Below are positions 51,017 to 64,000 of a stretch of DNA of 64,000 bases, piece after piece. Below the pieces are notes generated by a model. That model was not told the origin of the DNA. It saw only the letters and a list, made by a program, of their open reading frames with translations, and made no database searches. How positions within the stretch are numbered: position 1 is the stretch's first letter; each line of letters starts with the position of its first letter. Both the position numbers and the translations under genes were made by a program. This DNA is from Streptomyces agglomeratus (lineage in GTDB: Bacteria > Actinomycetota > Actinomycetes > Streptomycetales > Streptomycetaceae): positions 1,489,001-1,553,000 of the forward strand of contig NZ_MEHJ01000001.1 in NCBI RefSeq assembly GCF_001746415.1. The letters are read 5' to 3'.

Positions 51017-52246
51017 ATGAGCAAGGCTCTGGAGGGCGTGCGCGTCCTCGACATGACCCACGTACAGTCCGGCCCCTCCGCCACCCAGCTCCTCGGCTGG
51101 CTCGGCGCGGACGTCGTGAAGCTGGAGGCGCCGACCGGCGACATCACGCGCAAGCAGCTGCGTGATCTGCCGGACGTCGACTCCCTCTACTTCACGATGC
51201 TCAACTGCAACAAGCGCAGCATCACCCTCAACACCAAGACCGAGCGCGGCAAGGAGATCCTGACGGAGCTCATCCGGCGCTCCGACGTGATGGTGGAGAA
51301 CTTCGGGCCTGGCGCCGTCGACCGGATGGGCTTCACCTGGGAGCGCATCCAGGAGATCAACCCGCGCCTCGTCTACGCCTCGATCAAGGGCTTCGGAGAG
51401 GGCCCGTACACGAACTTCAAGGCGTACGAGGTCGTCGCCCAGGCGATGGGCGGGTCCATGGCGACCACCGGCTTCGAGGACGGCCCTCCGCTGGCCACCG
51501 GGGCGCAGATAGGGGACTCGGGGACGGGGATCCACGCCGTCGCCGGCATCCTCGCCGCGCTCTTCCAGCGGGAGAACACCGGGCGCGGCCAGCGCGTCAA
51601 CGTCGCCATGCAGCACGCTGTGCTGAACCTGTGCCGCGTGAAGCTGCGCGACCAGCAGCGCCTCGCGCACGGGCCGCTCGCCGAGTATCCGAACGACGAC
51701 TTCGGTGACGAGGTGCCGCGCAGCGGCAACGCGAGCGGCGGCGGGCAGCCGGGGTGGGCGGTCAAGTGCGCTCCGGGCGGTCCCAACGACTACGTGTACG
51801 TCATCGTCCAGCCCGTCGGCTGGGGACCGCTCGCCGGGCTGATCGGCCGGCCCGAGCTGGCGGACGACCCCGGGTGGGCGACCCCGGCGGACCGGCTGCC
51901 CAAGCTCGGCAAGATGTTCCAGCTCATCGAGGAGTGGTCCTCGACGCTGCCCAAGTGGGAGGTGCTGGAGCGGCTCAACGCCCACAACATCCCGTGCGGG
52001 CCGATCCTGTCCACCAAGGAGATCTTCGAGGACGCGTCGCTCGCCGCGAACGAGATGGTCGTCCGGGTCGAGCACCCCGAGCGCGGTGTCTTCACCACCG
52101 TCGGCAACCCCATCAAGCTGTCCGACTCCCCCTTCGAGGTGGTCACCTCACCGCTGCTCGGTGAGCACAACGCGCAGGTGTACGTCGGTGAGCTGGGCCT
52201 CGGCGACGAGGAGCTGCGGCTGCTCAAGACGAACGGAGTGATCTGA
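51017..52246 (+). CDS. frc: Formyl-CoA:oxalate CoA-transferase
   Basis: A 409-residue class III CoA-transferase moving CoA from formyl-CoA to oxalate. It is closely similar, in my recollection, to the enzymes of Oxalobacter and E. coli (YfdW): [14 protein letters not shown] at the start, catalytic Asp167 in QIGDSGTG, and the mobile Gly loop ASGGGQPGW near residue 240. All these are intact. It starts 16 bases after the TPP-enzyme gene with ACGGAGG upstream. Together the two enzymes can turn oxalate into formate and CO2. Confidence 0.93.
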
Positions 52247-54393
52247 TGGCGTCCCGTCACGACACCGCCGCCGTGCGCGCCGTGCTCGACGCGGCGGCCG
52301 CCGAGGGCCGCGGCGCGCTGACCGCCCCCGAGGCCAAGCGGATCGCCGACGCGTACGGCATCCCCGTCCCGGCGGAGGCGCTCGCCGAGACCGTGGACGA
52401 CGCCGTCGCCTTCGCCGCCCGGATCGGGTTCCCGGTGGCGCTCAAGATCGTCTCCCCGGAGATCACGCACAAGACGGACGCGGGCGGGGTGCGGACCGGG
52501 CTGACGTCGCCGAGCGAGGTGCGGGCGACGTTCACGGAGATCGTGGCCAACGCCCGTAGTTACGATCCGCGGGCGCGCATCCGGGGTGTCCAGGTGCAGC
52601 AGATGGTGCCGGCGGGGCAGGAGGTCATCGTCGGGGCGGTCACCGATCCGACCTTCGGGAAGATCGTGGCGTTCGGGCTCGGCGGGGTGCTCGTGGAGGT
52701 GCTGAAGGACATCACCTTCCGGCTCGCCCCGGCGTCCGAGGCCGACGCGCTGTCCATGCTCGACTCGATCCGGGCCGCCGAGATCCTGCGCGGCGTACGG
52801 GGCGGGGCGGCCGTGGACCGTACGGCGCTCGCGGAGCTCGTCGTGCGGGTGTCCGAACTGGCCGCCGACTTCCCGCAGATCGCGGAGGTCGACCTCAACC
52901 CGGTGTTCGCGACGGCGGACGGGGTGATGGCGGCGGACGTCCGCATCCTGCTCGGCGGCCCCTCCCCCGCGCCCCGGCGTCGGTACAGCCGGGAGGAGAT
53001 CCTGACCTCGATGCGGCGGCTGATGCAGCCCCGGTCGGTGGCGGTCGTCGGCGCCTCCAACGAGGCGGGCAAAATCGGCAATTCGGTGATGCGCAACCTC
53101 GTCGACGGCGGCTTTCCCGGCGAGATCCATCCGGTGAACCCCCGGGCCGATGACATCGTGGGCCGCAAGGCGTACAAGAGTGTCACGGACGTTCCCGGTG
53201 AGGTGGATGTGGCGGTCTTCGCGATCCCCGCCAAGTTCGTCGCGGCGGCGCTGGAGGAGGTGGGGCGCAAGGGAATCCCCAATGCCGTGCTCATCCCGTC
53301 GGGGTTCGCCGAGACCGGCGAGCACGCCCTCCAGGCGGAGATCGTGGCCATAGCGGAGCGGTACGGCGTGCGCCTGCTGGGGCCGAACATCTACGGCTAC
53401 TACTCCACCTGGCAGGACCTGTGCGCGACCTTCTGCACTCCGTACGACGTCAAGGGCGGGGTGGCGCTGTCCTCCCAGTCGGGCGGCATCGGGATGGCGA
53501 TCCTCGGGTTCGCCCGTACGACGAAGACCGGTGTCTCGGCGATCGTCGGGCTCGGCAACAAGTCGGACCTCGACGAGGACGACCTGCTGACCTGGTTCGG
53601 CGAGGACCCCAACACCACGTGCATCGCCATGCACCTGGAGGACCTGAAGGACGGCCGGGCCTTCGTCGAGGCGGCGCGGGCGACCGTACGGAAGAAACCG
53701 ATCGTGGTGCTCAAGGCGGGCCGTACGAGCGCGGGCGCGAAGGCGGCCGGCTCGCACACGGGGGCGCTGGCCGGTGACGACGCGGTGTACGAGGACATCC
53801 TGCGGCAGGCCGGGGTGATCAGGGCGCCCGGTCTGAACGAGATGCTGGAGTACGCGCGGGCGCTGCCCGTCCTGCCGGTGCCCCGGGGCGACAACGTCGT
53901 GATCATCACGGGCGCGGGCGGGTCCGGCGTACTGCTCTCGGACGCGATCGTCGACAACGGCATGTCGCTGATGGAGATCCCGGACGACCTGGACGCGGCG
54001 TTCAAAGCATTCATCCCGCCCTTCGGGGCGGCCGGCAACCCCATCGACATCACGGGTGGCGAACCCCCTTCGACGTACGAGGCGACCATCCGGCTCGGGA
54101 TGGAGGACCCGCGCATCCACGCGCTGGTGCTCGGCTACTGGCACACGATCGTCACGCCGCCGATGGTCTTCGCCGAGCTGACGGCGCGGGTGGTGGAGGA
54201 GTTCCGGGCGCGGGGCGTCGAGAAGCCGGTGGTGGCGTCGCTGGCCGGTGACGTGGAGGTGGAGGAGGCCTGCGCGTACCTCTACGAGCGGGGTGTCGTG
54301 GCGTATCCGTACACGACGGAGAGGCCGGTGGAGGTGCTGGGCGCCAAGTACCGGTGGGCGCGCGCGGCGGGTCTTCTGGGGGGCGGTCGATGA
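52246..54393 (+). CDS. ADP-forming acyl-CoA synthetase (acetate-CoA ligase family)
   Basis: A 715-residue fused ADP-forming acyl-CoA synthetase. Unusually for fused forms, the ATP-grasp part comes first (residues about 20-230, with KIVSPEITHKTDAGGV) and the CoA-binding/ligase part follows (from about 250, SVAVVGASNEAGKIGN), with SHTGALAG near residue 505 in the phosphohistidine-loop region. It makes or uses an acyl-CoA with ATP; oxalate, formate or acetate are candidate acids. The ATG shares one base with the frc stop (TGATG), so it belongs to the oxalate unit and may prime the cycle by making the first acyl-CoA. Confidence 0.85.
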   Translation: MASRHDTAAVRAVLDAAAAEGRGALTAPEAKRIADAYGIPVPAEALAETVDDAVAFAARIGFPVALKIVSPEITHKTDAGGVRTGLTSPSEVRATFTEIVANARSYDPRARIRGVQVQQMVPAGQEVIVGAVTDPTFGKIVAFGLGGVLVEVLKDITFRLAPASEADALSMLDSIRAAEILRGVRGGAAVDRTALAELVVRVSELAADFPQIAEVDLNPVFATADGVMAADVRILLGGPSPAPRRRYSREEILTSMRRLMQPRSVAVVGASNEAGKIGNSVMRNLVDGGFPGEIHPVNPRADDIVGRKAYKSVTDVPGEVDVAVFAIPAKFVAAALEEVGRKGIPNAVLIPSGFAETGEHALQAEIVAIAERYGVRLLGPNIYGYYSTWQDLCATFCTPYDVKGGVALSSQSGGIGMAILGFARTTKTGVSAIVGLGNKSDLDEDDLLTWFGEDPNTTCIAMHLEDLKDGRAFVEAARATVRKKPIVVLKAGRTSAGAKAAGSHTGALAGDDAVYEDILRQAGVIRAPGLNEMLEYARALPVLPVPRGDNVVIITGAGGSGVLLSDAIVDNGMSLMEIPDDLDAAFKAFIPPFGAAGNPIDITGGEPPSTYEATIRLGMEDPRIHALVLGYWHTIVTPPMVFAELTARVVEEFRARGVEKPVVASLAGDVEVEEACAYLYERGVVAYPYTTERPVEVLGAKYRWARAAGLLGGGR

Positions 54394-54511
54394 GCTGAGC
54401 AGCGGAGCGGACCACGGGGCCGGCGGCGGTCGCCCGCCGCGCGGCCCCGGCACGAAGAGAACGGACAGGGGGCGCTGCCCAGGCTTCTTCGACGCAAGGG
54501 GTTCGATCGAC

Positions 54512-55900
54512 ATGGCGACAACAGACATCTCATCGTCCGTCCCGTACCGGGAGGTGACAGACGCGAACGGCCGGATGTACCGGCTGGGCGAGACCGACGT
54601 GGACATCATGGGCCGCCCGCGCAAGTGGATGGTCATCCTGCCGTGGGTGGGCATGATGGGCATCAGCTCGGCGGAGTACGCGTTCGCGTCCGCCGAGGAC
54701 ACCCTGCACACCGCGCACGGGTGGGGCAGCCAGCACATCTTCTGGATGCTCGGCGTGTGGGTGTTCTTCCAGGCGGCGGTCGCCTTCCCGGCCGGGAAGC
54801 TGCGGGAGAGCGGGAAGCTGCCGGCCCGGTGGGCGATGATGCTGGGCGCGCTGGGGACCCTGCTCGGCTATCTGTCGCTGGCCTTCGCGCCGCATGTGGT
54901 CGTGGCGTACGTCGGCTTCGGCATGTTCAGCGGCATGGGCGCGGGCATGGTCTACGCGACCTGCGTGAACATGGTCGGCAAGTGGTATCCGGAGCGCAAG
55001 GGCGGCAAGACGGGCTTCGTCAACGGTGGTTTCGCGTACGGCTCGGTGCCGTTCGTGTTCCTCTTCACCGGCTACATGGACCTGACGAACTTCCGCTGGG
55101 TGCTGGTGTCGGTCGGGCTGTTCCTGGCGGCGACGGTGGCGTGCGCCGGGTACTTCTTCCAGGACCCGCCGAAGAACTGGTGGCCCGCCGACATCGACCC
55201 GCTGCGCAAGCCGGACGACCCGCGGGCGCGGCGCGCGCTGGAGAAGAACCCTCCGGCCGTCAAGCAGTACACGCCGAGGGAGGCGTGGCAGACGGGTCGC
55301 GTGGGCCTGATGTGGTTCTGCCTGCTGTGTACGTCGGGTGTGAACATCTTCGGCATCGCCTTCCAGGTGCCGTTCGGTGACGAGGCCGGCTTCGCGGGCG
55401 GCATCGTGGCCACGGCCATGTCCCTGAAGGCGATCGTGAACGGCACCGGGCGCGGGGTGATCGGCTGGCTGTCCGACCGGTACGGCCGCAAGCAGTGCCT
55501 GATCTTCGTCTGCGTCGTACTGGGGCTCTCCCAGTACGGGATCCTCTTCTCCGGGAACATCGGGAACCTGCCGCTGTTCCTGCTGTTCTCCAGCATCTCA
55601 GGGTTCGGCGGCGGCGCGATCTTCCCGATGTTCGCGGCGATGACGGCGGACTACTTCGGCGAGAACAACAATGCCTCCAACTACGGGCTCGTCTACAGCT
55701 CCAAGCTGGTGTCCGGTCTGCTCGGGTCCGGCATGGGCGCCGTCGTCGTGGGCGCCTGGGGGTACGGCGGAGCCTTCGTGCTGGCGGGGTCGATCTCCCT
55801 GTTCGCGGGCTTCATCGCGCTCTTCCTGCACCCGCCGGGGCGGCTGCGGGCCCGGCACATCGAGCCGAACCCGCAGCCGATCAGCCGCGACGCGATCTGA
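54512..55900 (+). CDS. OFA family MFS transporter (oxalate/formate antiporter type)
   Basis: A 462-residue MFS protein with about 12 membrane segments. The N-terminus (RKWMVILPWVGMMGISSAEYAF) and the loop motif RGVIGWLSDRYGRKQ fit the oxalate/formate antiporter family, although assignment to oxalate itself rests on the neighbouring frc and TPP-enzyme genes. It would bring in oxalate and export formate. ATG 54512 is chosen because it begins the conserved N-terminus; the 118-base gap after the synthetase gene is G-rich and without a terminator. Confidence 0.85.
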   Translation: MATTDISSSVPYREVTDANGRMYRLGETDVDIMGRPRKWMVILPWVGMMGISSAEYAFASAEDTLHTAHGWGSQHIFWMLGVWVFFQAAVAFPAGKLRESGKLPARWAMMLGALGTLLGYLSLAFAPHVVVAYVGFGMFSGMGAGMVYATCVNMVGKWYPERKGGKTGFVNGGFAYGSVPFVFLFTGYMDLTNFRWVLVSVGLFLAATVACAGYFFQDPPKNWWPADIDPLRKPDDPRARRALEKNPPAVKQYTPREAWQTGRVGLMWFCLLCTSGVNIFGIAFQVPFGDEAGFAGGIVATAMSLKAIVNGTGRGVIGWLSDRYGRKQCLIFVCVVLGLSQYGILFSGNIGNLPLFLLFSSISGFGGGAIFPMFAAMTADYFGENNNASNYGLVYSSKLVSGLLGSGMGAVVVGAWGYGGAFVLAGSISLFAGFIALFLHPPGRLRARHIEPNPQPISRDAI

Positions 55901-55914
55901 TGCCTCTGCCGCTC

Positions 55915-56955
55915 TCAGCAGTCCTTTTCGCGCAGTGAGTGCAGGTGGGCGCTGGACTTGCGGGCGAAGGCGAACGACTCGACGGGGTTGTCGTGTTCCG
56001 CCTGCCAGTGGTGGTCACGACGCCCGCCGCGGGTCTTCGACACCGCCGAGATGAACCGCTGGTAGTCGATGTCTCCGTCCCCGACGTCCACCATCCGGTA
56101 GCCGTCGCGGGCGGATGCGTCGTGTTCGCCGTCCTTGACGTGGAACAGCGGGTAGCGGTCGGGTTGCTTCAGTACGTAGTCGAGGGGGTCGAAGGGCGCC
56201 GGGGTGCCGTCGGCGCGCCTGCCGAACCGGAACTGGGCGGCGTACGCCCAGTAGATGTCCATCTCCAGGTAGACGAGGTCGGGGTCGGTCTCGGCGAGGA
56301 GCACGTCGTAGAGGCGGACGTCGGGCCGGTCGGTCGCGAAGGAGAACTCCTCGGCGTGGTTGTGCTGGTAGAACTTCATGCCGCGCGCCCTGGCCGCCGC
56401 GCCGTAGGTGTTGAAGTCCTCGGCGGCCCGCTTCCAGCCGTCGACGGTCGCGCCGTAGCGCCAGGGGCCGGACGCGGTGCCGATGTGCTTGAGGCCGAGG
56501 GCCTGGGCGTCGTCGAGGACCTTGGTGAGGTTCTGGGCGAAGGTGTACGCGCCGGGGTTGCCGTCGGAGTAGTAGCCGACGTGGCTGCCTATGCCGCGCA
56601 GGCCGTGGTCCCGGGTGAGCTTGCGGAGCTGGGCCAGGGTGATGGCGCCGGCGGAGCCCTGGGTGTAGCCGGCGTACTCGACCTCGTCGTAGCCGAAGCG
56701 CTCCAGCTCGGCGAAGACCTTCGCGAAGCCGAGGGTGGAGACCTTGTCGCGCAGGGAGTAGAGCTGGATGCCGAGGCGGCCGGGGGGCAGGACGGGCCGT
56801 CCCCGGCCGTTGCTCCGCGCCGTGGCGGTGGGCGCCGTGGCTCCGAGGAGGGCCGCGGCGGTGGCCCCGGCGGCCACGCCGAGCATGCCTCGCCTGGAGA
56901 GCTTGCGGGTGAGTTCGGGGTCGGCGGTGGTGGTCTTGCGGCTCATGGGTCGCAC
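55915..56955 (-). CDS. Tat-exported sugar phosphate isomerase/epimerase-like protein
   Basis: A 346-residue TIM-barrel protein of the AP-endonuclease 2/xylose-isomerase-like group. The N-terminus has a twin-arginine motif (LSRRGMLGV, residues 19-27) and a hydrophobic segment, so it should be exported folded. The barrel starts with LGIQLYSLRD; metal-ligand candidates are in HNHAEEF, EMDIYWA and HVKDGEHD. The GTG at 56955 has AGGAG eight bases upstream; ATG 56946 is the alternative. It lies 28 bases after the EboF-type gene and is probably the last gene of the operon. Activity is unknown; the family ranges from isomerases to 3-keto-glucoside enzymes. Confidence 0.8.
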   Translation of the reverse strand: MRPMSRKTTTADPELTRKLSRRGMLGVAAGATAAALLGATAPTATARSNGRGRPVLPPGRLGIQLYSLRDKVSTLGFAKVFAELERFGYDEVEYAGYTQGSAGAITLAQLRKLTRDHGLRGIGSHVGYYSDGNPGAYTFAQNLTKVLDDAQALGLKHIGTASGPWRYGATVDGWKRAAEDFNTYGAAARARGMKFYQHNHAEEFSFATDRPDVRLYDVLLAETDPDLVYLEMDIYWAYAAQFRFGRRADGTPAPFDPLDYVLKQPDRYPLFHVKDGEHDASARDGYRMVDVGDGDIDYQRFISAVSKTRGGRRDHHWQAEHDNPVESFAFARKSSAHLHSLREKDC

Positions 56956-56983
56956 GGGTGGAACTCCTTTGTCAGGGCTCTTG

Positions 56984-58387
56984 TCAGTGCAGTCCGGCAA
57001 GCTGGAGGAGCAGGGCTTTCACATCGGTGGCCGCTACGCGGCCGTCGACGGCGCGGGGGGTGGAGCACAGGATGAGCGGACCTTCGTCGTCGCTCTCGGG
57101 GAGGCGGCCGTGGCTGCCACGGACAGGTGAGGGGTCGAGGGGCACGACCGCCATGCGGTAGCGCATGCCGAGCTTCTTGCGGGCGAGTGCCGTGGCCGCC
57201 TTGACGCGTACGTACGGATCGAGGGGGTCCATGAAGAGTTCGACGGGGTCGTAGCCGGGTTTGCGGTGGATCTCGACGAGCTGGGCGAAGTCCGGGGCCT
57301 TGGCGTCGTCGAGCCAGTAGTAGTACGTGAACCAGGCGTCCGCCTCGGCCACGGCGACGAGCTCACCGGAGCGGGGGTGGTCGAGGCCGTGGCTCTTCTT
57401 GCCCTCGTCGTCGAGGAGTTCGGCGACGCCTTCGAGGCCGGCGAGAGCGGCGCGGGCGGCTTCGAGATCTTCGGGGCGGCGGACGTAGACGTGCGCGAGC
57501 TGGTGGTCGGCCACGGCGAACGCCCGGGAGGTCATGGGGTCCAGGTACTCCATGCCGTCCTGGGTGTGGACCTCGACGAGGCCGGCGCGGCGCAGGGCGC
57601 GGTTGATGTCGACCGGCCGCGAGACGCGGGTGATGCCGTACTCGGAGAGCGCCACGACCGTGCGGCCCTCGGCGCTCGCGTCGTCGAGCAGCGGTGCGAG
57701 GGCGGCGTCGAGGTCGGCTGCCGCGCGGTGGGCGCGGGGGTCGTCGGGGCCGTAGCGCTGGAGGTCGTAGTCGAGGTGCGGGAGGTAGCACAGGGCCAGG
57801 TCGGGGTGGCGGGTGCGCAGAATGTGGCGGGTGGCGTCGATGATCCACCGGGAGGAGACGAGGTCGGCGCCGGGGCCCCAGAAGTGGAAGAGGGGGAACG
57901 TGCCGAACCGGTCGGTGAGTTCGTCGTGGAGGGCCGGGGGCCGGGTGTAGCAGTCGGGTTCCTTGCGGCCGTCGGCGTAGTAGACAGGGCGTGGGGTGAC
58001 GGTGTAGTCGGTGTCGGCGCCCATCGCGTACCACCAGCAGATGTTGGCGACGGTGTATCCGGGGTGGGCGCGGCGGGCGGCGTCCCAGATCTTGTCGCCG
58101 GCGACGAGGCCGTTGTGCTGGCGCCACAGGAGTACTTCGCCGAGCTCGCGGAAGTACCAGCCGTTGCCGACGATGCCGTGCTCGGCGGGGGTGGTGCCGG
58201 TGAGGAAGGTCGACTGGGCGGCGCAGGTGACGGCGGGCAGGACGGTGCCGAGGGGGGCCTGGGAGCCGGACCGGGCGAGCCGCCCGAGACGCGGCATGTG
58301 GGCGAGCAGCCGCGGGGTCAGGCCGACGACGTCCAGGACGAGCAGGGGCGTGGGGCCGCCGCCGGTGGTGGTGCGTGTCTCGGTCAC
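56984..58387 (-). CDS. eboF: Nucleotide pyrophosphatase/phosphodiesterase-type protein (EboF-like)
   Basis: A 467-residue alkaline-phosphatase-superfamily protein. The N-terminal LLVLDVVGLTP and the nucleophile region LPAVTCAAQSTFLTG (Thr/Ser) are like nucleotide pyrophosphatases, and DYDLQRYGPD supplies metal ligands. The later motif where the superfamily has SDHG reads LSEYGITRV, as I recall is characteristic of EboF. A conserved AFAVADHQLAHVYV follows. Start GTG 58387 has AAGGAG and overlaps the eboE stop by four bases. In the ebo cluster of cyanobacteria the proteins help export a scytonemin precursor; the substrate in this organism is unknown. Confidence 0.78.
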   Translation of the reverse strand: MTETRTTTGGGPTPLLVLDVVGLTPRLLAHMPRLGRLARSGSQAPLGTVLPAVTCAAQSTFLTGTTPAEHGIVGNGWYFRELGEVLLWRQHNGLVAGDKIWDAARRAHPGYTVANICWWYAMGADTDYTVTPRPVYYADGRKEPDCYTRPPALHDELTDRFGTFPLFHFWGPGADLVSSRWIIDATRHILRTRHPDLALCYLPHLDYDLQRYGPDDPRAHRAAADLDAALAPLLDDASAEGRTVVALSEYGITRVSRPVDINRALRRAGLVEVHTQDGMEYLDPMTSRAFAVADHQLAHVYVRRPEDLEAARAALAGLEGVAELLDDEGKKSHGLDHPRSGELVAVAEADAWFTYYYWLDDAKAPDFAQLVEIHRKPGYDPVELFMDPLDPYVRVKAATALARKKLGMRYRMAVVPLDPSPVRGSHGRLPESDDEGPLILCSTPRAVDGRVAATDVKALLLQLAGLH

Positions 58388-59553
58388 GGCAGCTCCTTGA
58401 GGCCGAGGTCGACCAGGAGGTCGCGGGCAAGGGTGAGTTCGGCGGCGATGCCCTCGGCGAGCTGGGTGCGGTTGCGGGGGCGCAGCTCGGGCGGGAGTGC
58501 CTGCCAGGTGTACGTCTCGACCTCCAGGTGCCGGGTGAGGGGCGCGGGGCCGCCGACGAGGCGGGCGAGGGCGTCCCGGAGCACCGGGAGGGTGGAGGTG
58601 AGCGGTGGGGCGGGCGGGGCGTGGAGGGGGACGTGGAAGTGGGCGCGCCACGGGGCGCCGTCGGGGAGGACCGCTCCGGTGAGTGCCTCGGGGAGGTCGT
58701 CGGTGCCGCGCAGGCCGGCCGCGGTGCGGGTGCGGGTCTGGTGGAGGAAGCGGGGTTCGGCGAAGGCGGCGAGGGCTTCCCGCACTTCGGGGAGGTGGGG
58801 GTGTTCGGCGTGCAGGGCCGCGGAGAGCTGCACCTTGGGGATGGTGACGCCGGCGGCGGTGAGCGCGCCGAGGGCGGTCGCCGGGTCCTCGAAGGAGGTG
58901 GCGAGGTGGCAGGTGTCGACGCAGACGCCGATGCGCGGGGTGGCGAGGGCGGTGAGGGGGCCGATGGCGTCGGCGGTGGTCTCGACGGTGCAGCCGGGCT
59001 CGGGTTCGAGGCCGATGCGGATGGACTTGCCGGTGAGCTCCTCCAGCACGTCCAGGCGTTCGGCGAGCGTCGTGAGGGCCGTGTGGGCGGCCTCGGCGCC
59101 GGCCGCGTTGAAGGGGGTGCGCCAGGCGAGGGGGAGGGTGGAGACGGTGCCTTCGGTGACGTCGTCGGGGAGGAGGGCCGCGAGGAGGTGGGCGAGGTCG
59201 GTGGTGTGGTCGAGCCGCGGGGGCTCGGTCCAGTCGGGCCGGTACACGCGGTACTTGACCTCGTCGGCACCGAACCCCTCGTACGGGAAGCCGTTGAGGG
59301 TGACGACTTCGAGGCCGCGCCGGTCCAGTTCGCCGCGCAGGCCGCGCAGGGCCGCCGGGTCGGTGATCAGTGCGCGGGCGGCGTCCTTCGCGAGCCACAG
59401 ACCGATGCCGAGGCGGTCCCGTCCCAGGCGTCGGCGTACGGGCTCGCAGTGGTCGCGGAGCTGGGCGAGTACGCCGTCGAGGGTCTCGGCGGGGTGGACG
59501 TTGGTGCAGTACGCGAGGTGGACGGTGGAACCGTCGGGGTGGCGGAATCGCAT
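58384..59553 (-). CDS. eboE: Metabolite traffic protein EboE (TIM-barrel isomerase-like)
   Basis: A 389-residue TIM-barrel protein of the EboE family: HLAYCTNVHPAETLDGV near the N-terminus is a family hallmark, and barrel ligands appear in LEPEPGCTVE and VCVDTCHLATSFE. EboE is sugar phosphate isomerase-like, reaction unknown. ATG 59553 has GAGGGGAG upstream; the earlier frame to 59622 has no conserved sequence. It is followed by eboF with a GTGA overlap and preceded by the TatD-like gene at 16 bases, all on the minus strand. Confidence 0.85.
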   Translation of the reverse strand: MRFRHPDGSTVHLAYCTNVHPAETLDGVLAQLRDHCEPVRRRLGRDRLGIGLWLAKDAARALITDPAALRGLRGELDRRGLEVVTLNGFPYEGFGADEVKYRVYRPDWTEPPRLDHTTDLAHLLAALLPDDVTEGTVSTLPLAWRTPFNAAGAEAAHTALTTLAERLDVLEELTGKSIRIGLEPEPGCTVETTADAIGPLTALATPRIGVCVDTCHLATSFEDPATALGALTAAGVTIPKVQLSAALHAEHPHLPEVREALAAFAEPRFLHQTRTRTAAGLRGTDDLPEALTGAVLPDGAPWRAHFHVPLHAPPAPPLTSTLPVLRDALARLVGGPAPLTRHLEVETYTWQALPPELRPRNRTQLAEGIAAELTLARDLLVDLGLKELP

Positions 59554-59569
59554 CGTGGCTCCCCTCCCC

Positions 59570-60421
59570 TCATTCCCCGCCGCGAAGGATGGAGTTGCCC
59601 TCGTGGAGCGGCTCGGGGGCATCGGACAGGTCGAGGCGCAGGCGGCCGCTGAGCCCGTAGAAGGCGACGGGATTGCGCCACAGGACCTGGTCGACGTCGT
59701 CCTCGGTGAAGCCCGCGGCGAGCAGGGCGTCGCCGACCTTGCGGGTCTTGAGCGGGTCGCTCTTTCCCCAGTCGGCGGCGGAGTTGACGAGGATCTTCTC
59801 CGTACCGTGGTCCTTGATGACGGCGACCATGCGGTCCTCGTCCATCTTCGTGTCGGGGTAGATGGAGAAGCCGAGCCAGCAGCCGCTGTCAGTGGCGGCC
59901 TTTACGGTGGTCTCGTTGAGGTGATCGAGGAGGACACGCTCCGGGGGGAGGTTCGATTCACGGATGACGTCGACGGTGCGGTGGAGACCGGCGAGCTTGT
60001 CGCGGTGCGGGGTGTGGACGAGGGCGGGCAGCCCGTGGTCGGCGGCGAGCTGGAGCTGGGCGGCGAGGGCGGTGTCCTCGGCGGGGGTCATGGAGTCGTA
60101 GCCGATCTCGCCGACGGCGACGACGGAGTCCTTGACGAGGTAGCGGGGAAGCGCGTCGAGAACGGGGGTGCAGCGGGGGTCGTTCGCCTCTTTGGGGTTG
60201 AGGGCGAGCGTGCAGTGGTGGGCGATGCCGTACTGGGAGGCGCGGAAGGGCTCCCAGCCGAGGAGTGCGTCGAAGTAGTCGAAGAAGCTGGCGGGCGAGG
60301 TGCGGGGCTGGCCCAGCCAGAAGGAGGGCTCGACGACGGCGCGCACTCCGGCGGCGTACATCGCCTCGTAGTCGTCCGTGGTGCGGGAGGTCATGTGGAT
60401 GTGGGGGTCGAAGATGCGCAT
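59570..60421 (-). CDS. eboB: TatD family metal-dependent hydrolase (EboB-like)
   Basis: A 283-residue hydrolase of the TatD/amidohydrolase fold. Metal ligands are in place: HxH in DPHIHM near the start, Glu in VGEIGYD, His in VHTPHRDK, His in LDHLNE and Asp in NSAADWGK. TatD proteins include DNases and lactonases; the ebo-cluster members have no known reaction. It is six bases downstream of eboA and 16 bases upstream of eboE. Symbol assigned by cluster context, so less certain than the fold. Confidence 0.82.
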   Translation of the reverse strand: MRIFDPHIHMTSRTTDDYEAMYAAGVRAVVEPSFWLGQPRTSPASFFDYFDALLGWEPFRASQYGIAHHCTLALNPKEANDPRCTPVLDALPRYLVKDSVVAVGEIGYDSMTPAEDTALAAQLQLAADHGLPALVHTPHRDKLAGLHRTVDVIRESNLPPERVLLDHLNETTVKAATDSGCWLGFSIYPDTKMDEDRMVAVIKDHGTEKILVNSAADWGKSDPLKTRKVGDALLAAGFTEDDVDQVLWRNPVAFYGLSGRLRLDLSDAPEPLHEGNSILRGGE

Positions 60422-60427
60422 CAGAAC

Positions 60428-61264
60428 TCAGGACTCCTCTGTGGGGGCGGCCGTGGTGTCCGGGAGGGCCGTGAGGGCCAGGACGCGGTGGAGATCGTCC
60501 GGTACGGGGCGGCCCGCGGCCGTGCGTTCGGCGGCGTAGTCGCGGAGCATCCGGGCCAGTTCGGTGTCTCCCTGGGAGCGCGGGGACAGGGCGTCGACGG
60601 CCTCGACCGGCACACCGGTGAACAGGCACTTGAGGACGGCGTGCCGCCAGGCGTGCTGGTCGAGGTGCTCGGCGGCGTACGGTCCGACCGCGGCGGCGAC
60701 GAGTCGTGTGTCGTTGGTGCGCAGGGCGTCTTCGACGAGCGGGAGCGCGGCCCGGGGGGGCGTGAGCGTGGCACCGAGACGAGGCAGGGCCCACAGCACC
60801 GCGCGGCGTTCGGCGGCGGTGCCGTGGCTGTACAGGCGGGCGGTGGTGGCGTGGTCGGCTCGTACGGCGTGCAGCAGGAGGACGCGGGCGGCGTCGGCCA
60901 GGTCCTCGGCGTGCCGGGCGTCCGGGGCGGCAGGTGCGGTCGGGACGTGGGCCGGACGGCAGTGGCGGCCGGCTTCGGCGAAGCGGATCTCCCAGAGGGG
61001 CATCGACCACCGGGCGCGAAGTCCGTCCGCCGGGCCGGGCAGCTCGGCTTCCGCTTCGGCTCCCGCCTTGGTCGCTGCCCCCGCCCTGGCCGCTGCCGCC
61101 GTCTTTTCCGCTGCCGCTGCCTCTTCCGCTGACGTTGCCTCTGCTTCGGCTTCCGCCTCGGCCAGGGCTTCGTGGAGCCAGGCACGGCCCGCGCCCGCCA
61201 GTTGTGCTTCGAGTGCGGCTTGCAGGACGGAGGGCGGGGCTCCGTTGGTCAGCTCGGTCAGCAT
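60428..61264 (-). CDS. eboA: EboA domain protein
   Basis: A 278-residue EboA-family protein. The conserved core begins with RAWLHEAL, then an Ala/Glu-rich low-complexity insertion (about residues 34-75, alternating Ala-Glu and Ala-Ala-Ala), and continues with SMPLWEIRFAEAGRHC, a HEAT-like helical part (LWALPRLGAT, ALRTNDTRLVAAAVGP) and LDQHAWRHAVLKCLFTGVP. EboA proteins are found only in ebo clusters and their role is unknown, probably protein binding. ATG 61264 overlaps the end of the isomerase gene by seven bases, indicating coupled translation. Confidence 0.85.
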   Translation of the reverse strand: MLTELTNGAPPSVLQAALEAQLAGAGRAWLHEALAEAEAEAEATSAEEAAAAEKTAAAARAGAATKAGAEAEAELPGPADGLRARWSMPLWEIRFAEAGRHCRPAHVPTAPAAPDARHAEDLADAARVLLLHAVRADHATTARLYSHGTAAERRAVLWALPRLGATLTPPRAALPLVEDALRTNDTRLVAAAVGPYAAEHLDQHAWRHAVLKCLFTGVPVEAVDALSPRSQGDTELARMLRDYAAERTAAGRPVPDDLHRVLALTALPDTTAAPTEES

Positions 61265-62178
61265 CGTGCGCCTCCCGCCGGGAGAGCGCTGCCCGCTCCG
61301 GCGGGCTGCGCCTTGCGCAGGAAGTCGATCGACCGGGCGGCCAGTTCGGGGCCGGCGTGCGAGTGGCGGGGAAGCTCGACCACCGTGAGGCCCTGGTAGC
61401 CGGTGGCCGCGAGTGCCTCCAGGACGGGCGGGAAGTCGATCTCGCCGTCACCGAACGGAAGGTGCTCGTGCACACCACGCCGCATGTCCTCGATCTGGAC
61501 GTGCCGCAGCCAGGGAGCGGCCTCGCGCACGCAGTCGGCGGGCGAGGACGGCTCCAGGCACTGACAGTGGCCGATGTCGAGGGTGAGGCCGAGAGAGGAC
61601 GGGTCGCCGAGGGCGCGGCGCAGGTGGTGGAAGTCGGCGAGGGTGGCGAGGAGGTGACCGGGTTCGGGCTCCACGGCCAGCGGTACGCCGGCGGTGGCGG
61701 CGGCCTCGATGACCGGGCCGAGTGACTCCCTCAACCGCTGCCACGCGAGGTCGGGCGGCGTGCCGGCGGGGGTGACGCCGCTGAAGCAGTGCACAGCACG
61801 GGCGCCGAGGTCGGCGGCGACGCGTACCGCCGTGAGGAGCAGTCCGGCGCGGGCGGCTCGGGCGGCCGGGTCCGGGTCGAGCAGGGAAGGGCCGTGTTTG
61901 CGGCGCGGATCGAGGACGTACCGGGCGCCGGTCTCGATGGTCACCCCCAGGCCGAGCTTCGAGAGCCTGCGGCCCACGTGCCGGGTACGGGCGGCGAGTC
62001 CGGGGGCGAGGGGATCGAGGTGCATGTGGTCGAGGGTCAGGCCGACGCCGTCGTAACCGAGGCCGGCGAGGAGGGCCAGAGCGTCGTCCAGACGGAGGTC
62101 GGTGAGGCCGTTGGTGCCGTACCCGAAGCGCAGCGGCGTGGTGTGCGCGGCGGGAGTGGGGGCGGGGGTGACGGTCAT
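61258..62178 (-). CDS. Sugar phosphate isomerase/epimerase (TIM barrel)
   Basis: A 306-residue cytoplasmic barrel of the xylose-isomerase-like AP2EC family (inositol catabolism IolE/IolI relatives). Metal ligands expected for the family are in VEPEPGH, LDIGHCQ, QIEDMRRG and VVELPRHSH. It starts with a GTG/ATG overlapping the UbiA gene stop (ATGA at 62175-62178) and overlaps eboA at its end. An isomerase beside an inositol-phosphate synthase suggests work on an inositol or keto-sugar intermediate; this is inference. Confidence 0.85.
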   Translation of the reverse strand: MTVTPAPTPAAHTTPLRFGYGTNGLTDLRLDDALALLAGLGYDGVGLTLDHMHLDPLAPGLAARTRHVGRRLSKLGLGVTIETGARYVLDPRRKHGPSLLDPDPAARAARAGLLLTAVRVAADLGARAVHCFSGVTPAGTPPDLAWQRLRESLGPVIEAAATAGVPLAVEPEPGHLLATLADFHHLRRALGDPSSLGLTLDIGHCQCLEPSSPADCVREAAPWLRHVQIEDMRRGVHEHLPFGDGEIDFPPVLEALAATGYQGLTVVELPRHSHAGPELAARSIDFLRKAQPAGAGSALPAGGARC

Positions 62179-63239
62179 GTGGGGCTCACCTTTCGCGACA
62201 GCATTCGGGCGAGGGGTACGAGCCCCATGAGCGCCGCGCCCGCCCCCGCCGCACCGCTGCGGGCGGCGAGTGCGGCCTGGAGCGGGATCATGGCCCGGAT
62301 TCCGCCGCCGACGGCGCGCTGGGTCAGGGGCGGGGAGGGATTGAGCACGGCGTGGAAGAGGGGCTTGGCCGCGGTGCGGAAATAGGCGGCGGCCGCGAAG
62401 GTGGCGGGGGTCGCTAGGCGGGTGGCGACGCGGATCGCCGGGTGGAGGGCGGGCGGGGGCGCGGCGGCCGGCGCCGACCCGCCGCCGGCCGCCGGCCGGG
62501 GCGGAGCGCCGGCCGCCTCCGCACCGGGGCGTTCACGGGCGGCCAGGGTCGCCAGTACGGCTGCTGCCGCCAGGGCGGCGAGGGGCGCAGCGGTGGAGCC
62601 GCCCTGCGTCTCGCGGCGCGAGACCGCTGTGACGGCGTAGGTGTGGGCGCCGAGCATGGCCGCGGCGGTCAGTGCGGCCGGGCTGCGGCGGGTCCCGGTG
62701 AGTAGGTTCCCCGCCCCACCCCTTTCGGGACCTCGGGCCAGGTCTGGGAGGGGAAAGCTGACGTCTGGTGAACCGGTCCTCGCCCCCGTCGCCGTCGCGC
62801 CCAGCAGGAGGTCCAGTGCTCGCGCGGCGGCCATCGTCGCGGGCGCGGCCGGCGTGTGCTTCAGCCGCAGGTCGTAGGCCCAGATCGTGGCGGCCAGCCC
62901 CGTGGCCACCGCCAGCGCCGGGCGGCCCGCGCCCGCCGCCAGGGCGAGGCCGGCCACCGTCAGGGCGCCCGACGCCGCCAGCGCCTGCCGGGGAGTGACG
63001 CGGCCGGAGGGGATCGGACGGTGCGGGCGGTCCACAGCGTCCTCGGCGCGGTCCGCCCAGTCGTTCAGCGCCATGCCCGCCTCGTACAGGCACAGCGAGG
63101 AGCCGACGGCCAGCGCCGTCCCCCGGTTGGGGCGTACGCCGATGGACGCCGCCCCCGCCACGGCGTCACCCGGGACGGTGAACAGGGCGGACACCCGCAG
63201 GAGTTCCGCCCAGGCGGCGAGGCGAGCGGACCGCCTCAT
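62175..63239 (-). CDS. eboC: UbiA-like prenyltransferase (EboC-like)
   Basis: A 354-residue membrane protein of the UbiA family that attaches prenyl chains to an acceptor. The first Asp-rich motif NDWADRAED (with NDxxD) is near residue 58, and PHRPIPSGRV follows. The normally present second Asp motif is weak or shifted, and the region from about residue 150 to 180 and from 235 to 275 is unusually rich in Gly, Pro and Ala. ATG 63239 overlaps the stop of the inositol-phosphate synthase gene (ATGA). In ebo clusters the UbiA-type gene is EboC; acceptor unknown. Confidence 0.85.
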   Translation of the reverse strand: MRRSARLAAWAELLRVSALFTVPGDAVAGAASIGVRPNRGTALAVGSSLCLYEAGMALNDWADRAEDAVDRPHRPIPSGRVTPRQALAASGALTVAGLALAAGAGRPALAVATGLAATIWAYDLRLKHTPAAPATMAAARALDLLLGATATGARTGSPDVSFPLPDLARGPERGGAGNLLTGTRRSPAALTAAAMLGAHTYAVTAVSRRETQGGSTAAPLAALAAAAVLATLAARERPGAEAAGAPPRPAAGGGSAPAAAPPPALHPAIRVATRLATPATFAAAAYFRTAAKPLFHAVLNPSPPLTQRAVGGGIRAMIPLQAALAARSGAAGAGAALMGLVPLARMLSRKVSPT

Positions 63240-64000
63240 CGGGCCTCCCGCAGGCGGCCCGCGAAGGCCAGCAGTGCCTCGTACTGCTCCCCCAGCGCCG
63301 CGGGTCCGCCACCGTCCGGGTCCTTGAAGTAGAAGCCCAGCTCCGGCAGCGGGCCCGAGACGCCCACCTCGTGGGCGCGGGCCAGCAGCCGCGCCAGGTC
63401 CAGGACGAGCGGCGCGGCGAGCGCCGAGTCGCACCCCTGCCACGTGGTCTGGAGCGTCATCCGGGACCCGAGGAAGCCGGCGAAGGCGATGTGGTCCCAG
63501 GCCGTCTTCCAGTCACCGAGCGCCGGTACGTCGTCGATGTGTACGTCGCCCTGCGGAAGCGCGCCCAGCGTGTCCGCGAGGACGCGGTTCTTGCCCGCGT
63601 TCTTCGCCGCCGCTGCGGCCGGGTCGGCCAGCGCTGCCCCGTCCCCGCCGCCGAGCAGATTCGTGCCCGACCATGCCCGTACGGGCAGGGCGCGCTGCAC
63701 GAACATCGGCGCGAGTACGGAACGGAGCAGCGTCTGGCCCGTCTTGCCGTCGCGTCCCGCGTGGGGAAGGCCGCTGGCCGCGACGGCGTCCTGGAGGGCC
63801 GGGGCGCGCAGCCCGGTGGAGGGGGTGAAGTTGACGTACGGGCAGCCGGCTCGCAGGGCGGCCGCCGCGTAGAGGGAGCTGGGCGGGAGCACCTCTGGGT
63901 CCGCCGGCGCGGGCTCCGTCGAGGCGACGTTGACGACGACGACCCGGTCGAGACGCTGCCGCCGCGCGAAGTCCAGCAGGTCCGCCGCGAACGCGCCGAT
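63236..64000 (-). CDS. Inositol-3-phosphate synthase-like enzyme, 5' end beyond the window
   Basis: The last 254 residues of an NAD-dependent myo-inositol-phosphate synthase-type protein. The visible part begins in the VVVVNVASTEP strand (typical of INO1) and includes DGKTGQTLLRSVLAPMF, WSGTNLLGGGDG, the conserved Lys segment KNRVLADTLG and HIDDVPALGDWKTAWDH. These match the INO1 catalytic fold. The frame is open to the right edge, so the gene starts outside. The first gene here of the ebo-like operon; it may replace the dehydroquinate-synthase-type EboD cyclase of other ebo clusters, which is inference. Confidence 0.85.
   Translation of the reverse strand: MGAFAADLLDFARRQRLDRVVVVNVASTEPAPADPEVLPPSSLYAAAALRAGCPYVNFTPSTGLRAPALQDAVAASGLPHAGRDGKTGQTLLRSVLAPMFVQRALPVRAWSGTNLLGGGDGAALADPAAAAAKNAGKNRVLADTLGALPQGDVHIDDVPALGDWKTAWDHIAFAGFLGSRMTLQTTWQGCDSALAAPLVLDLARLLARAHEVGVSGPLPELGFYFKDPDGGGPAALGEQYEALLAFAGRLREAR

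Follow-up and report, generated by a model that had tools for sequence, protein, structure and literature searches.

A probable variant of the ebo gene cluster in Streptomyces, with an INO1-type cyclase in the place of EboD

The closest described relatives of the gene unit reported here are the eboA-F clusters (Yurchenko 2016, PMC5133447; Klicki 2018, PMC6282210), for which the accessible sections of the ebo papers from 2016 to 2022 give no identified product. In these sections, Yurchenko et al. put forward the idea of an isoprenoid cyclitol (PMC5133447), and Klicki et al. proposed a lipid carrier together with a helical-repeat scaffold role for EboA, published ebo mutants being interpreted as defects in synthesis or export (PMC6282210). 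We analyzed a 64,000-nt stretch of the Streptomyces agglomeratus genome (9.13 Mb), namely bases 1489001–1553000 of contig C1 (NZ_MEHJ01000001.1), hereafter the window, at the right-hand end of which lies a unit that shares with the known ebo systems, as far as these are described in the accessible text, a clustered EboA domain, EboB, EboE, EboF, a UbiA-superfamily protein, and a sugar-phosphate cyclase. It differs from them in having a cyclase of the myo-inositol phosphate synthase (MIPS) fold for EboD, an extra isomerase (Iso), another UbiA subfamily, the order MIPS-C-Iso-A-B-E-F, and, in most Streptomyces loci of this type, a protein exported by the twin-arginine (Tat) route. The EDB cluster of Pseudomonas fluorescens NZ17, described as a full ebo cluster whose mutant is edible to nematodes, is likened here by description only and, unlike the window cluster, has an eboD homologue (PMC6282210, accessible sections). 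We consider the chances slightly better than even that the unit represents a MIPS-type ebo variant, in which an INO1-fold cyclase replaces EboD alongside an extra isomerase and a distinct UbiA protein, and which would serve a dedicated inositol-type, lipid-linked, exported product. Our literature search, whose coverage left out most subscription journals and preprints, found no paper linking MIPS to ebo, and the accessible main text of Yurchenko et al. does not contain the word "inositol" (PMC5133447).

In transcription order, the unit consists of INO1, UbiA, Iso, EboA, EboB, EboE, EboF, and a Tat-exported TIM barrel, all on the minus strand between 55915 and 64000 (Table 1), with the first gene starting 381 bases beyond the window. 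To cover it, we fetched stretch L003 (C1:1543501–1563500; L003 position = window position minus 54500), which reaches 10.5 kb past the window and places the GTG start of INO1 at L003:9881, 137 bases after the stop codon of a same-strand 1,241-aa protein with secreted-type domains. The original prediction had described eight minus-strand genes separated by minute overlaps and gaps; all of the open reading frames (ORFs) lie where it had put them, and their spacing was re-read. Specifically, the overlaps are 4 (INO1/UbiA), 4 (UbiA/Iso), 7 (Iso/EboA), and 4 (EboE/EboF) bases, and the gaps are 6 (EboA-EboB), 16 (EboB-EboE), and 28 (EboF-exported isomerase) bases, the last figure assuming that the exported isomerase starts at the GTG at 56955 behind AAAGGAG, its longest ORF beginning at TTG 57000. 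Judged from this spacing (overlaps of 4–7 and gaps of 6–28 bases), the eight genes are predicted to form one transcription unit. No sigma-70-like promoter or terminator-like site was detected in L003:1300–10200 by a scan that is weak for Streptomyces and has little power at this G+C content. The order INO1-UbiA-Iso-EboA-EboB-EboE-EboF recurs in all eight MIPS loci outside Streptomyces (the EboA match being weaker and partial in L041) and thus lies far beyond chance.

Table 1. Genes of the ebo-type unit, in transcription order (window positions).
Feature	Position	Strand	Profile match
INO1/MIPS-type cyclase, 381 aa	63236..64000, continuing 381 bases beyond window (L003:8736-9881)	minus	PF07994, PF01658
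UbiA-type prenyltransferase, EboC position, SCO3242 family, 354 aa	62175..63239	minus	NF045897
Iso, cytoplasmic TIM-barrel isomerase, 306 aa	61258..62178	minus	PF01261, 150.8 bits
EboA-domain protein, 278 aa	60428..61264	minus	NF035938
EboB, TatD/amidohydrolase-like, 283 aa	59570..60421	minus	PF01026, 49.6 bits
EboE, 389 aa	58384..59553	minus	NF035939
EboF, NPP/alkaline-phosphatase fold, 467 aa, GTG start	56984..58387	minus	PF01663, 223.9 bits
Tat-exported TIM-barrel protein, 346 aa, GTG start with AAAGGAG	55915..56955	minus	PF01261, 60.7 bits

The INO1 protein, which is 91–93% identical to Streptomyces-annotated proteins, carries both MIPS domains above their cut-offs (118.8 bits for PF07994 and 103.7 bits for PF01658). 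Its closest solved relatives bear the names Ino1 or inositol-3-phosphate synthase: the 1u1i group (Ino1, which we take to be archaeal) scored best at 200 bits, followed by 7nwr at 122 bits, with 1jkf (presumably from yeast) at 55, 6k96 at 44, and 1gr0 (presumably mycobacterial) at 34 bits. The chains of 3qvw, 3qvx, and 3qw2 each differ from 1u1i by one residue in the aligned stretches (K to A, K to A, and N to A, respectively), and the residues that differ there, plus further Lys and Asp residues, are retained in the window INO1. Across the eight divergent ebo MIPS compared, no variation occurs at the Lys, Asn, and Asp positions, so that fold family and these residues, which are regarded as catalytic in Ino1 enzymes, are common to ebo MIPS and the Ino1 of 1u1i. 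Because the catalytic residues checked are kept, INO1 likely makes an inositol-phosphate-type product, and the enzyme looks active and dedicated to the ebo unit. We rejected the idea that it is the cell's mycothiol enzyme, since it scores only 28.3 bits against the mycothiol_INO1 family (TIGR03450; cut-off 638) and a separate mycothiol Ino1 (719 bits) is encoded elsewhere in the genome. Within the Ino1 family, full-length ebo-like members score at least 498 bits with the ebo profile, whereas the four MIPS over 1e-60 in 201 genomes of the phylum of Herpetosiphon giganteus (G537) all lie at 219–231 bits, unlike the ebo type.

The earlier expectation that INO1 sits where a dehydroquinate-synthase-type EboD would be expected was borne out by extension to the right. 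An EboD further right was rejected as a candidate: the EboD profile has no match in L003, and the best match in the genome to the EboD of L029, the sole actinobacterial EboD locus found (35% identity over 272 residues), is AroB (343.8 bits, cut-off 305); the L029 query itself matches NF004852, named 3-dehydroquinate synthase, with 563 bits. A nine-row EboD profile matched none of 150 Streptomyces genomes at 1e-80. Three control genomes (G381 and those of L074 and L079) gave EboD matches of 1e-187 or better with this profile; since sequences from these genomes are among its rows, they confirm no more than that the search functions. In 12 other actinobacterial EboE genomes, the profile reached 2e-49 at best, with nothing at 1e-30 in G318 and G444, and we read these matches as AroB-level.

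We asked how the two cyclases are distributed among 140 EboE loci, made up of 20 from an Actinomycetota survey (including the window; 19 of 396 genomes matched EboE), 80 named loci (the best 80 of more), and 40 more from Streptomyces. MIPS was present in 43 loci, EboD in 76, and neither in 21, and no locus had both; all 43 MIPS-type loci belong to Actinomycetota. Specifically, the Actinomycetota survey gave 17 MIPS, 1 EboD, and 2 neither, the extra Streptomyces loci gave 26, 0, and 14, and the named loci gave 0, 75, and 5, so that MIPS-type ebo outside Actinomycetota is only touched on, by its absence among the best 80 named loci. Among the loci with neither cyclase, L156, L167, and L191 run out of contig before the position of MIPS is reached, L159 appears rearranged, L104 spans only 3.6 kb, and the EboE match of L043 is in two pieces; L092, L106, L109, and L127, all from outside Actinomycetota, are covered over the full stretch. 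In a quick EboE tree of 130 of the 140 loci (only rows matching about 300 residues or more, with uneven letter make-up), 39 MIPS and 10 MIPS-less actinobacterial rows form one branch (SH-aLRT 100), and the opposite side holds all 76 EboD rows plus 5 with neither (81). This is consistent with one ancient cyclase exchange, the direction of which the tree does not give. L029 groups with Thermomicrobiota, Chloroflexota, and one Rhodothermota row (support 88); its EboF gene is directly followed by a type 2 isopentenyl-diphosphate isomerase gene (L029:12822–13862), which is consistent with an isoprenoid step. At the level of whole genomes, EboE was found in 107 of 150 Streptomyces genomes (104 over the family cut-off), ebo-like MIPS in 105, and both in 104; the exceptions are G408, G444, and G460 (EboE only) and G526 (MIPS only), with G444 and G526 fragmented into more than 1,000 contigs and G460 being a single contig.

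Two further components change with the cyclase. Among loci with a UbiA match, which omits four MIPS and five EboD loci, Iso lies beside the UbiA gene in 39/39 MIPS loci compared with 0/71 EboD loci; it adjoins UbiA in MIPS-type and MIPS-less actinobacterial clusters and not in EboD-type ones. Its nearest solved relatives are ketose- and ribulose-5-phosphate 3-epimerases, with IolE lower down; in the accessible text of Yurchenko et al., actinobacterial EboA is said to be fused to a xylose-isomerase-like region, with data not shown there (PMC5133447). The UbiA-like transferase originally proposed is indeed of UbiA type, but it is not an EboC equivalog (115.3 bits against NF035940, cut-off 250) and belongs instead to the SCO3242 family (375.6 bits against NF045897, cut-off 260), whose name states neither a substrate nor a link to ebo. 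The N, D, and R residues of its NDWADRAEDAVDRPxRP stretch are invariant in 26 relatives. At 1e-60, SCO3242_trans matched all 26 UbiA proteins from MIPS-type or MIPS-less actinobacterial loci, none of which matched EboC, and EboC matched 21 of 26 from EboD-type or related loci, none of which matched SCO3242_trans; the remaining five, L029 among them, matched neither. Both test sets were hand-picked for spread and length, L179 being skipped for its length and L106, in the second set, having neither cyclase. The joint difference in cyclase, isomerase, and transferase points to a different substrate rather than to mere enzyme replacement. SCO3242 and SCO3243 are named in two transcriptome studies, including PMC3610822, one of which, in its accessible part, lists SCO3243 as a myo-inositol phosphate synthase among CDA-cluster genes.

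EboB, EboE, and EboF are common to both cyclase types, and EboA occurs in most loci. The Ebo assignment itself holds, with EboE scoring 423.8 bits (NF035939, cut-off 250) and EboA 158.5 bits against the EboA domain (NF035938, cut-off 50), while EboA misses the stricter EboA_family (NF035937, 61.3 vs 320 bits). The predicted structure of EboA is all-helical (pLDDT 85.0); no solved relative was found by profile and no Foldseek match under an E-value of 0.27, the weak fold matches (best E-value 0.27) being mostly armadillo- or HEAT-type repeat proteins. The model thus agrees with, and does not prove, the scaffold idea of Klicki et al. as given in the accessible text (PMC6282210). One profile covers the window EboB and that of EboD-type loci, and its residues D5, H7, H9, E105, H136, H167, and D217 are kept in 130–132 of 132 loci. 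EboF, 46–70% identical to 31 other EboF proteins, was examined in 133 rows of at least 400 residues, with residue numbering and metal-ligand roles that we assume from Xac NPP: T90, D210, and H363 are kept, and the ligands D54, H214, D257, and H258 are replaced by V/A, Q, E/G, and Y in 133/133 loci. EboF therefore lacks the full metal-ligand set of a di-metal NPP phosphodiesterase, and of the "EboF-type phosphodiesterase" named in the original prediction the NPP fold and EboF identity stand, whereas the loss of four usual ligands makes the phosphodiesterase activity doubtful.

Gene content, gene order, cyclase exclusivity, conserved catalytic residues, and an export signal can all be read from the sequences, and a prenylated, exported cyclitol is a plausible product. 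In the pathway that we propose, the cyclase would supply a dedicated inositol phosphate, or a closely related cyclitol phosphate, made from glucose 6-phosphate; Iso, EboE, and EboB would adjust the cyclitol, and the UbiA protein would attach a prenyl chain to it within the membrane, in agreement with the lipid-carrier and isoprenoid-cyclitol ideas as set out in the accessible sections (PMC6282210; PMC5133447). EboA and the altered EboF may be scaffold or ligand-binding parts, and the lipid-linked product would then cross the membrane. In Streptomyces, the Tat-exported TIM barrel, together with ThuA, 3-keto-disaccharide-hydrolase, and sugar-dehydrogenase domains, may act outside the cell on the product or its cargo. 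More speculatively, and in our view rather unlikely to hold as a whole, ebo may be a modular pathway to prenyl-linked cyclitols, membrane carriers of a class not described before, with two unrelated cyclases as alternative sources of the head group; the carrier of most Streptomyces would be a prenyl inositol(-phosphate), EboF would have turned into a ligand-binding protein that is non-hydrolytic or acts in some other way, and secreted keto-sugar enzymes would release and trim the cargo outside. The exchange of cyclase folds supports the published guess of a cyclitol core, with inositol becoming the predicted head group in Streptomyces. It also makes the question of the ebo product testable, as mutants, inositol labelling, and lipidomics are routine in this genus. 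Since EboE occurs in 107 of the 150 Streptomyces species sampled, a common metabolite or carrier of a well-studied genus may have been overlooked.

The leader of the exported isomerase, LSRRGMLGVAAGATAAALLG, was read by eye as a twin-arginine signal, as were those of 29 Streptomyces members; a script pattern also matched, sometimes on unrelated upstream residues. That an exported isomerase ends the operon, as originally stated, applies here. Of 38 MIPS-kind loci in Streptomyces, 29 have it no more than 1.5 kb from EboF (MIPS gave no match in 3 of these, and among the other nine, L165 has the isomerase but no EboF match). This arrangement does not extend beyond the genus: the isomerase adjoins EboF in 0/8 MIPS loci outside Streptomyces, with a relative beside MIPS in L040 and L042. 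With the reach set to 0.8 kb from EboF, the count is 20 of 42 MIPS loci. As it follows EboF only in Streptomyces, we rejected it as a general part of the variant. Its nearest solved relatives are 8tcd, 8tcs, and 8tct, which we take to belong to a 3-keto-glycoside pathway. Two Agrobacterium proteins carry the annotation of sugar phosphate isomerase; the first is a 3-keto-glycoside-cleaving enzyme, and preliminary evidence suggests that the second adds water to the cleavage product (PMC10628242). The exported isomerase has only annotation class and TIM-barrel family in common with them; based on these enzymes and on the structural relatives, it is a fair guess, and no more, that a keto-sugar or keto-cyclitol undergoes elimination or hydration outside the cell.

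To the right of the unit, on the same strand, the 1,241-aa protein carries GSDH, PKD, CBM6, ThuA, and 3-keto-disaccharide-hydrolase domains and is followed by a 772-aa Gfo/Idh-isomerase fusion, levoglucosan-dehydrogenase-like, and by three further genes that look like a sugar ABC transporter. Within the fetched stretches, ThuA, 3-keto-disaccharide hydrolase, and GSDH domains occur in 24, 24, and 23, respectively, of the 29 Streptomyces loci with the exported isomerase, in 0/12 each near MIPS-less paralogues, and in 2/8 (ThuA), 1/8 (hydrolase), and 4/8 (dehydrogenase) near MIPS loci outside the genus. The MIPS-less paralogues are twelve counted Streptomyces loci without MIPS and exported isomerase, L191 being cut by a contig end; L197 is a further MIPS-less locus. 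Seven MIPS-less loci (L026, L153, L158, L166, L168, L171, and L176) have a gene of the inositol-monophosphatase family and a FAD oxidoreductase upstream, with Pfam support in two of the seven. A P450 lies downstream in all four loci scanned for it, namely L166, the only one of the seven so scanned, and the MIPS-less L162, L174, and L178, which lack the two upstream genes. An inositol-phosphate phosphatase beside an ebo cluster lends indirect support to a role for inositol; members of the family remove phosphate from other substrates as well.

Several observations weigh against the inositol-type variant proposed here. MIPS homologues can yield other cyclitols, as 6k96, a five-membered-cyclitol-phosphate synthase, illustrates, and the one reported activity that we found for a UbiA enzyme in the EboC position, farnesylation of quinoline acids and a few other aromatics (PMC9235831), does not directly match a cyclitol as acceptor. 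A strong ebo-like MIPS in L200 (561 bits) lies outside any ebo cluster. Conversely, the single-contig G460 is a real exception, with EboE and without any ebo-like MIPS, and at least 11 Streptomyces loci lack MIPS with no contig end to account for it, so that MIPS is not always needed. Taxon and cyclase type are also confounded, because the query for the named loci had an EboD-type first row. The swap may have been one event: with cyclase type tied to a single branch, the 140 loci cannot count as independent trials, and the co-variation of cyclase, Iso, and UbiA subfamily was likewise seen once, on that one branch. One alternative is a MIPS-fold enzyme re-specialized for a non-inositol cyclitol, whose precursor could be sedoheptulose 7-phosphate or fructose 6-phosphate, with both ebo types reaching the same or a very similar product. 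The shared EboB, EboE, EboF, and, in most loci, EboA would fit such an outcome, as would the fold's inclusion of 6k96 and the distance of ebo MIPS from the mycothiol Ino1 family (28.3 vs 638 bits). We hold it to be possible, though on the unlikely side, as the Ino1-named relatives score far above 6k96 (200 and 122 vs 44 bits), the catalytic residues are kept, and Streptomyces paralogues carry an inositol-monophosphatase-family gene; a common end product also sits poorly with a UbiA subfamily and an Iso that changed with the cyclase.

The existence of MIPS-less Streptomyces ebo loci, and the role of inositol as a general precursor, would also suit an INO1 that merely boosts the inositol pool (mycothiol, phosphatidylinositol) as a passenger in the operon, the Ebo proteins acting on something else. 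We regard this as improbable given the separate mycothiol Ino1, the joint presence of ebo-like MIPS and EboE in 104 of the 108 Streptomyces genomes having either, and the 0/140 loci in which MIPS and EboD meet. Less probable still is a catabolic unit, in which an unusual glycoside or inositol derivative would be taken up and degraded by oxidation and elimination with the help of the transporter-like genes, the levoglucosan-dehydrogenase-like fusion, and the ThuA/3-keto-disaccharide-hydrolase neighbors. In its favor are the presence of three TIM barrels, of which two are PF01261 members beside EboE, the recurrence of the ThuA, hydrolase, and dehydrogenase domains in the Streptomyces loci, and the activities of the same-annotated Agrobacterium proteins (the hydration being preliminary; PMC10628242, accessible part). 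Yet these neighbors are absent near the MIPS-less paralogues and partly so at the non-Streptomyces MIPS loci, UbiA transferase and MIPS are biosynthetic, and the mutants have been read in print as synthesis or export defects (PMC6282210, accessible sections).

A few atypical loci and neighbors were observed in passing. In L200:1535–10529, where no further ebo gene was called, the surroundings of the lone ebo-like MIPS include a cis-prenyltransferase gene as well as three genes of the vanadium-chloroperoxidase type. A mini-locus at L201:7962–14873 contains an isomerase, a MIPS, a UbiA piece, and an exported isomerase, with no EboA, EboB, EboE, or EboF match among the called genes. L159 has two EboE genes 3 kb apart, with EboB, EboA, and EboF matches interleaved, which may reflect a rearrangement or an assembly fault. 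In the window, oxalate-use-type genes at 51017–55900 converge on the ebo unit: a formyl-CoA transferase (677 bits), an acyl-CoA ligase-like protein, and an OxlT-like MFS carrier, the converging MFS gene (54512–55900) abutting the downstream end of the unit. An OxlT relative lies within the fetched stretch in 22 of the 29 Streptomyces loci with the exported isomerase.

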